Positions 32,215 to 33,221 of a stretch of DNA of 36,234 nt are shown piece by piece; the first letter of the stretch is position 1, and each line of letters starts with the position of its first letter. Below the pieces are notes generated by a model. It made no database searches. It worked only from the letters and a program-made list of their open reading frames with translations, and was not told the origin of the DNA. A program made the translations under genes and the position numbers. This stretch comes from a virus, in the IMG/VR virus record IMGVR_UViG_3300046002_004193, positions 1-36,234 of that record. One strand, written 5' to 3'.

Positions 32215-32481
32215 ATGACCATGACGAGAGAGGAGGCGCTGGCCCAAGTGTTGCGGGTGGCGGCGGATATGCAGGACAGGGATTGGGTTCCGGCCGGGGC
32301 CGTCGAGGTTCACGAATGGGCCGGCGAGCTGATGGCCGCCCATGAAGCCATCGCGGCGCTGGGCGGTGGGGAGGTGGAGCGTCCGGCCGGCTGCACCTGC
32401 GTGCCGGGAACGCCATCCCATTGGCATCGCATCACCTGCCCCGCGTTACATGCCGCCGCCCTGTCAAAGGCCCAGCCGTGA
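32215..32481 (+). CDS. Small phage protein with Cys/His cluster (88 aa)
   Basis: An 88-residue protein. The first half is helical (TREEALAQVLRVAADMQDRDWVPAGAVEVHEWAGELMAAHEAIAAL). The second half has CTCVPGTPSHWHRITCPAL, with three Cys and two His in 16 residues, which may bind a metal. It precedes and overlaps the methyltransferase GTG start as GTGA. Function unknown. Confidence 0.65.
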   Translation: MTMTREEALAQVLRVAADMQDRDWVPAGAVEVHEWAGELMAAHEAIAALGGGEVERPAGCTCVPGTPSHWHRITCPALHAAALSKAQP

Positions 32482-33221
32482 GCGGGGGTGTGGTGGCGGC
32501 GTACTACAACGAGATTGAACTACCCCTCGCTGAACTTTTGCGCGAGCTGATGTCTGAGGGGCTAATACCCGACGGCGAAGTGGACACTAGGAGTATTGCT
32601 GATGTTGATGCGGCTGACTTGCGACGATTTGGGCAATGTCATTTCTTCGCCGGCTCCGGTGGCTGGGCATACGCTGCCCGGCTTGCTGGATGGCGCGACG
32701 ATGCCCGACTGTGGACCGCTAGCTGCCCCTGCCAGCCATTCAGCGCCGCTGGACTTGGCGTGGGGCTTGCCGACGAAAGGCACCTCTGGCCCTATCTGTT
32801 CCGCCTCATCCGCGAGTGCCGCCCTGACCATCTCTTTGGCGAACAGGTTGCAGCAGCGATTGGGCTGCATTGGCTCGACCTGGTACAGGCAGACTTGGAG
32901 GGCGAAGGCTACCGCGTCGGGCCGGCCGTACTGGGCGCACACAGCGTCGGCGCTCCCCACCGCAGGCAGCGCCTCTACTTCGGTGCCGACGCCCTCTGGA
33001 ACCAGCAACCACGGCAGGAACCATGTGGCTGGGCGCCTGGACGAGTGGGGCGGGTCGAGCAATCCTTTCCGTGGAACACCCCTTGGGAGAGTGCATTGTC
33101 CCGCCTTCGAGTTCTGGCTGATGGGCTACCCCGAAGCGTGGCCGCGACTGATGCAGCGCGTAACGCCATCGTCCCGCAAGTAGCTGCCGAGTTCATGGCC
33201 GCGTACATGGAGGCCGCATGA
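32478..33221 (+). CDS. dcm: DNA cytosine-C5 methyltransferase, phage type
   Basis: A 247-residue cytosine-C5 methyltransferase starting at the GTG at 32478. Motif I is FAGSGGWAY (residues 57-65), the catalytic motif IV is CPCQPFSAAG with Cys85, motif VI is FGEQV in place of the usual ENV (a form common in phage members), motif VIII is HRRQRLY and motif X is RNAIVPQVAAEF near the end. It likely protects phage DNA from restriction. No partner restriction gene is present. The target recognition region (residues about 170-215) is short. Most of the gene is also open in a second frame that looks coding (32602-33183). Confidence 0.88.
   Translation: MSGGVVAAYYNEIELPLAELLRELMSEGLIPDGEVDTRSIADVDAADLRRFGQCHFFAGSGGWAYAARLAGWRDDARLWTASCPCQPFSAAGLGVGLADERHLWPYLFRLIRECRPDHLFGEQVAAAIGLHWLDLVQADLEGEGYRVGPAVLGAHSVGAPHRRQRLYFGADALWNQQPRQEPCGWAPGRVGRVEQSFPWNTPWESALSRLRVLADGLPRSVAATDAARNAIVPQVAAEFMAAYMEAA
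32602..33183 (+). CDS. Nested gene in the +1 frame of the methyltransferase (193 aa)
   Basis: A 193-residue frame lying entirely within the methyltransferase gene. It has its own strong AGGAG site 8 bases before the ATG at 32602; a TTG at 32596 is also open. Its sequence has features I recall from free-standing phage proteins: VISSPAPVAG near the start, SASSASAALTISLANRLQQRL, GSTWYRQTWRAKATASGRPYW, VPTPSGTSNHGRNH, LDEWGGSSNPFRG and FEFWLMGYPEAWPRL near the end. The repeated Ser/Thr/Pro/Gly composition is partly what a +1 shadow of this MTase would give, so a check of conservation is needed. Its role is unknown, perhaps linked with the methyltransferase. Confidence 0.55.
   Translation: MLMRLTCDDLGNVISSPAPVAGHTLPGLLDGATMPDCGPLAAPASHSAPLDLAWGLPTKGTSGPICSASSASAALTISLANRLQQRLGCIGSTWYRQTWRAKATASGRPYWAHTASALPTAGSASTSVPTPSGTSNHGRNHVAGRLDEWGGSSNPFRGTPLGRVHCPAFEFWLMGYPEAWPRLMQRVTPSSRK

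Follow-up and report, generated by a model that had tools for sequence, protein, structure and literature searches.

Organization of the overlapping locus

The window, that is, the whole stretch of DNA analysed here, is a 36.2-kb virus record in which integrase, portal, terminase and recombination genes are present. Two genes share one segment of its plus strand (Table 1): f0, which encodes a predicted C5-cytosine DNA methyltransferase, and f1, which is read in the +1 frame and lies wholly within f0. The start codon of f0 is a GTG that overlaps the stop of the preceding ORF, and its open frame extends upstream to 32346, while f1 ends with a stop codon at 33181-33183 and its ATG follows an AGGAG at a spacing of 8 nt. 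A preliminary description of this locus had given the same coordinates and spacing, which were confirmed from the sequence. No restriction enzyme was recognised among the scanned neighbours of the two genes, and an Rfam search found nothing.

Table 1. Features of the f0/f1 locus, with positions in the window.
Feature	Position	Strand	Evidence
f0, predicted C5-cytosine DNA methyltransferase, putative catalytic subunit, 247 aa	32478..33221	+	PF00145, phrog_363, AF2/Foldseek
f0 motif content: II/III, I, IV, VI, VIII, X; motif IX absent	32478..33221	+	
f1, +1-frame gene nested in f0, 193 aa	32602..33183	+	phrog_1008; stop, synonymous-site and profile tests; AF2
AGGAG, Shine-Dalgarno-like site of f1, within f0 T-R-S codons	32589..32593	+	sequence
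f1 start ATG, formed from f0 GAT GTT (Asp-Val)	32602..32604	+	ATG at homologous place in 66/105 loci
Motif IX-like segment of f1, residues about 169-181, FEFWLMGYPEAWP	33106..33144	+	motif-IX mini-profile
Motif X of f0, NAIVPQVAAEF	33162..33194	+	A5 invariant columns N229 A230; motif X mini-profile

The f0 product matches PF00145 in Pfam (E 1.6e-14) and phrog_363 (E 7.7e-61), and it has the catalytic core of C5-cytosine methyltransferases, namely the PCQ of motif IV (P84-C85-Q86) and the glutamate of motif VI (E122), both of which are invariant, with EQV in place of ENV. Moreover, AF2 models this core with a pLDDT >90, and Foldseek relates it to M.HhaI and M.HaeIII with E values of about 1e-6. 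Residues 175-228 are mostly of low pLDDT, at the place where the small domain would be expected. The preliminary description had credited f0 with a complete set of motifs, which proved wrong, as motif IX is missing and the block of motifs II/III stands ahead of motif I. Enzymes of the monomeric type hold motif IX and a target recognition domain (TRD) in one chain; f0 is not of this type, and a motif-IX profile matched none of the f0 proteins. The order of motifs looks permuted over f0 residues about 8-84 (window 32500-32730): the YYNEIDPYA block (motifs II/III, roughly M.HhaI 34-63) comes ahead of motif I, FFAGxGGW (roughly M.HhaI 3-32), and the individual matches to M.HhaI are weak, yet consistent across homologues.

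Relatives and parts of the nested gene

No Pfam family was matched by f1, which belongs with phrog_1008, labelled 'DNA methyltransferase' (E 2.6e-10), a match found in 43 of 43 members of the A1 set. Loci were retrieved with the f1 of the window (56 loci) and with f1 profiles (82 loci), and at every one of them the f1 frame is +1 antiphase to a C5 methyltransferase. It had been suggested that parts of f1 are known from stand-alone phage proteins, and none of the 138 retrieved loci bears this out; the possibility raised alongside, that f1 has only antiphase relatives, turned out to be true at all 138. Seemingly stand-alone f1 records reflect the annotation of one frame: Pseudomonas phage phPA-G is annotated with f1 alone, epsilon15 and Paracoccus KLEP18-1 with f0 alone, and coliphage K1ind1, fTaEco01 and Xanthomonas PhiXhv-18 with both frames. 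The pair is annotated in K1ind1 and fTaEco01 as overlapping CDS, a 'C-specific methylase' and a 'putative Mte8-like protein'; Mte8 is named without explanation in PMC5582158. A contig scan with the f1 alignment gave two loci only, both nested, and a plasmid search gave one match. At PP083311.1:23175-23903 (L005) the deposited annotation holds the f1 frame only ('hypothetical protein') and omits the methyltransferase frame, and for two E. coli prophages (L264 and L265) RefSeq has the methyltransferase as two pseudogene fragments, one missing the C-terminus and the other the N-terminus. In the open-access literature searched we found no description of the nested gene and no statement that phrog_1008 is overprinted on phrog_363 or on the role of phrog_1008, and family-wide conservation of the nested layout in phages appears to be unreported.

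AF2 predicts f1 residues 1-68 to be disordered, with a helix and a beta hairpin at residues 70-117; the hairpin is followed by a variable region (LPTP..DEWGGSSNPFRG) and then by the motif IX-like FEFWLMGYPEAW. Alone, f1 yields a weak model (pLDDT 58), better ordered around 70-117 and 142-176, as expected for a chain that may depend on a partner. Comparison with the PDB by sequence, profile and fold gave no convincing match, and we therefore make no claim from the structure of f1. Based on the variable region, the f1 proteins split into two groups, the first of which includes the window and reads LPTPSGTSNHGKNHVxGRLDEWGGSSNPFRG, while the second has a repeated WPTPxxxD and then GQLNPAHSRWLMG. 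Both groups are homologous over their length (hhalign E 5.5e-37), a similarity that may be partly forced by the shared f0. The NHGKNHV..DEWGGSSNPFRG region was also observed in combination with two kinds of f0 N-terminus, of permuted and of conventional motif order (L017, L018 and L029-L062), which suggests that the dual-coding segment has been exchanged as a unit.

Selection on the +1 frame

In GC-rich DNA, a conserved methyltransferase could leave a long open +1 frame as an untranslated antiphase shadow, and two features of the locus suit such an origin: the GC content is 0.66, and f0, to which the +1 frame is antiphase in every case, is well conserved. The abundance of stop codons speaks against it. 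When synonymous codons were shuffled within f0, preserving the protein and the codon counts, 2.6 stops were expected in the +1 frame of the window, which has none, and 0 of 200 shuffles were stop-free. Over the 138 loci, 35 stops were observed in this frame where synonymous shuffles predict 313, a 9-fold deficit, and 111 loci were stop-free versus 18.4 expected. The other frames were near expectation (observed/expected stops in the same loci: +2, 1121/1092; -0, 378/378; -1, 656/599; -2, 781/699). Moreover, the openness of the +1 frame is largely lost in enzymes that carry motif IX in frame, which served as a control and had +1 stops near expectation (65 vs 84.5 and 144 vs 156.5).

Divergence at the fourfold sites of f0 is lowered in the overlap. 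In 34 independent pairs, each locus being used once although phage loci are not fully independent across tests, it dropped from 0.362 in the 5' part of f0, outside the overlap, to 0.257 where f1 overlaps motifs I-VIII and to 0.156 across TRD-X, and the pos3/(pos1+pos2) ratio for these three regions was 2.03, 1.23 and 0.53. The f0 protein is least conserved between motifs VIII and X (61% identity), which is where fourfold-site divergence is lowest. Synonymous-site patterns fitting one frame only, which the preliminary description had named as a reason to discard f1, were thus not found, and f1 stands as a gene on that account.

When tested with an f1 profile whose training set left out the group of the window, the +1 product of the window scored 150.5 bits. 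It exceeded all of 100 synonymous shuffles of the window, which reached 109.4 bits at most, although their mean of 86 bits counts in favour of a shadow. With this out-of-group profile, 39 of the 55 loci in the group of the window beat all their shuffles, as did 62 of 63 second-group loci with the other f1 profile, and the converse test for f0 succeeded in 55 of 55. These profile tests, together with the codon-position and stop tests, replaced a pairwise comparison of +1 conservation with codon shuffles (+1 z 5.1, +2 z 3.1), which was dropped since it is positive in all frames, as shuffling destroys shared ancestry.

Because the stop, synonymous-site and profile tests agree, both frames are under selection. 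Judged by how its sequence has evolved, f1 is a real, selected gene, and the co-conservation of its Shine-Dalgarno site and start (see below) further argues against a shadow, which we regard as scarcely credible. The earlier suggestion that one segment encodes two proteins over about 580 bp is therefore supported by the stop, divergence, start/Shine-Dalgarno and profile tests.

Initiation of f1

The f1 ATG is kept at the homologous place in 66 of 105 loci, and the loci without it mostly have another one near, e.g., 18 nt upstream. GAT accounts for 75% of the codons at the Asp of the f1 start vs 39% at other f0 Asp codons followed by G, and AGG/AGA for 44% at the Shine-Dalgarno Arg codon vs 17% elsewhere in f0. 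Likewise, a Shine-Dalgarno site of at least 4 bases is present in 37 of the 66 loci with the ATG and in 0 of the 39 without it (background 11.8%). As start and Shine-Dalgarno site are co-conserved, independent initiation of f1 is favoured over programmed ribosomal frameshifting, an option of the preliminary description by which the N-terminal part of f0 would be joined to f1 and so receive an alternative C-terminus. The frame of f1 is indeed +1 relative to f0 and frequently open upstream of its ATG, as frameshifting would need, but the fusion would be without motif X, which is confined to f0, and motifs VIII and X require that translation of f0 continue in its own frame. We consider frameshifting very unlikely.

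A motif IX-like module encoded in f1

A motif-IX mini-profile, built from mycobacteriophage methyltransferases with this motif in frame, matched 85 f1 and 0 f0 proteins, and a motif X mini-profile matched 18 f0 and 0 f1 proteins; the f1 of the window matches the former weakly (E 0.031), and its assignment rests on the family. In mycobacteriophage monomers (e.g., Estave1) the C-terminal module of f1 is found in frame, directly before motif X. Positions 121-262 of the f1 profile A2 align with the segment that mycobacteriophage methyltransferases have in frame between motifs VIII and X (best E 6.6e-12), and hhalign of f1 with these enzymes gave E values of 1.4e-6 (probability 90) and 2e-5. Monomers of the Estave1 type thus share the variable-region/motif-IX module of f1 (LPTP..FPEWMMGWPAGWV), but they read it in the frame of the catalytic part, and their +1 frame has not stayed open, whereas in the window the module is in f1. 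Since the motif-IX profile matches only f1 and the monomers carry the module in frame before motif X, f1 most likely supplies motif IX in trans, and probably target recognition too.

f1 might instead be a separate protein with its own function, e.g., in regulation or anti-restriction, whose gene only happens to overlap that of the methyltransferase. This would agree with the length and predicted disorder of its N-terminal part, with its own helix-hairpin, and with the partial retention of +1 sequence in some phages in which f0 itself carries motif IX: of 25 mycobacteriophage enzymes that have this motif in frame, 20 scored above all their shuffles, and some retain part of the +1 N-terminal sequence. 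Nevertheless, the C-terminus of f1 corresponds to an in-frame enzyme region of monomeric relatives, f0 is without exactly the part that f1 carries, and 0 of 138 loci have f1 without f0, all of which make a separate function improbable. Being partly retained despite an in-frame motif IX, the N-terminal half of f1 may serve some other purpose.

In the Mycobacterium phage Graduation (L145), LLPTP lies in the +1 frame and WLMGLPRGW in frame 0, and further mosaic loci (L149-L153 and L159, besides L145) include enzymes that have motif IX in frame and still retain part of a +1 ORF. From these mosaic states, the module seems to have switched frames.

Comparison with known two-polypeptide methyltransferases

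One bacterial precedent is known for a two-part enzyme of this nested kind, namely M.EcoHK31I, and what appears to be new here is that the arrangement is widespread in phages. M.EcoHK31I has its small subunit encoded within the large subunit gene, in an alternative frame, and requires both polypeptides in vitro. Nesting in an alternative frame is likewise found for f1, in the window and in all loci examined. According to PMC3404938, which cites Lee, Kam and Shaw 1995, M.EcoHK31I (YGGCCR) is a C5 methyltransferase that naturally consists of two polypeptides; its large subunit carries motifs I-VIII and X, and its small subunit carries IX. In architecture, the phage pair matches it, with I-VIII and X in f0 and IX in f1. 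The predicted TRD of M.EcoHK31I is placed in the large subunit in that paper, whereas here the variable, TRD-like region appears to lie in f1 as well. Also unlike M.EcoHK31I, the pair belongs to a phage, no restriction enzyme was recognised close to it, and motifs II/III of f0 precede motif I. M.AquI (CYCGRG), described in the same paper, is another natural C5 methyltransferase of two subunits, the second of which holds motif IX, as f1 does here. Its small subunit, however, holds IX, X and half of the variable region, whereas X stays in f0 here, and f1 is nested entirely inside f0, unlike in M.AquI. As to phage protein families, phrog_363 and phrog_1008 are both labelled 'DNA methyltransferase', f0 falling in the first and f1 in the second.

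Proposed function and significance

Altogether, we think it highly probable, from sequence and fold comparison, that overlapping frames of the locus specify a phage C5-cytosine methyltransferase made of two polypeptides. The predicted role of f0 is catalysis and SAM binding, through motifs I-VIII and X, and f1, an independently initiated gene under selection, carries the module that monomers have between VIII and X (variable region and motif IX). By binding f0, f1 would complete its DNA-recognition domain, and for this reason neither f0 nor f1 alone is expected to be an active sequence-specific methylase. The pair may methylate the DNA of the phage, most likely as protection from host restriction, given that no recognisable restriction enzyme adjoins it. 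A bolder reading, which we hold as possible though rather doubtful, is that dual coding is obligatory in a very widespread family of phage methyltransferases, with a further role for the N-terminal half of f1 and a recognition module that has moved between frames.

Long nested genes on the same strand are few and mostly isolated cases, whereas the f0/f1 arrangement recurs in more than 200 phage loci, and both of its frames are testable. This implies that a subunit is missing from many 'DNA cytosine methyltransferase' records, or that a 'hypothetical protein' annotated at that place is the subunit; an enzyme cloned in such a way that f1 is broken, e.g., by codon optimisation of f0, would probably be dead or altered. 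Moreover, the nested and in-frame versions of the module represent a natural experiment on how a recognition region may move between reading frames.
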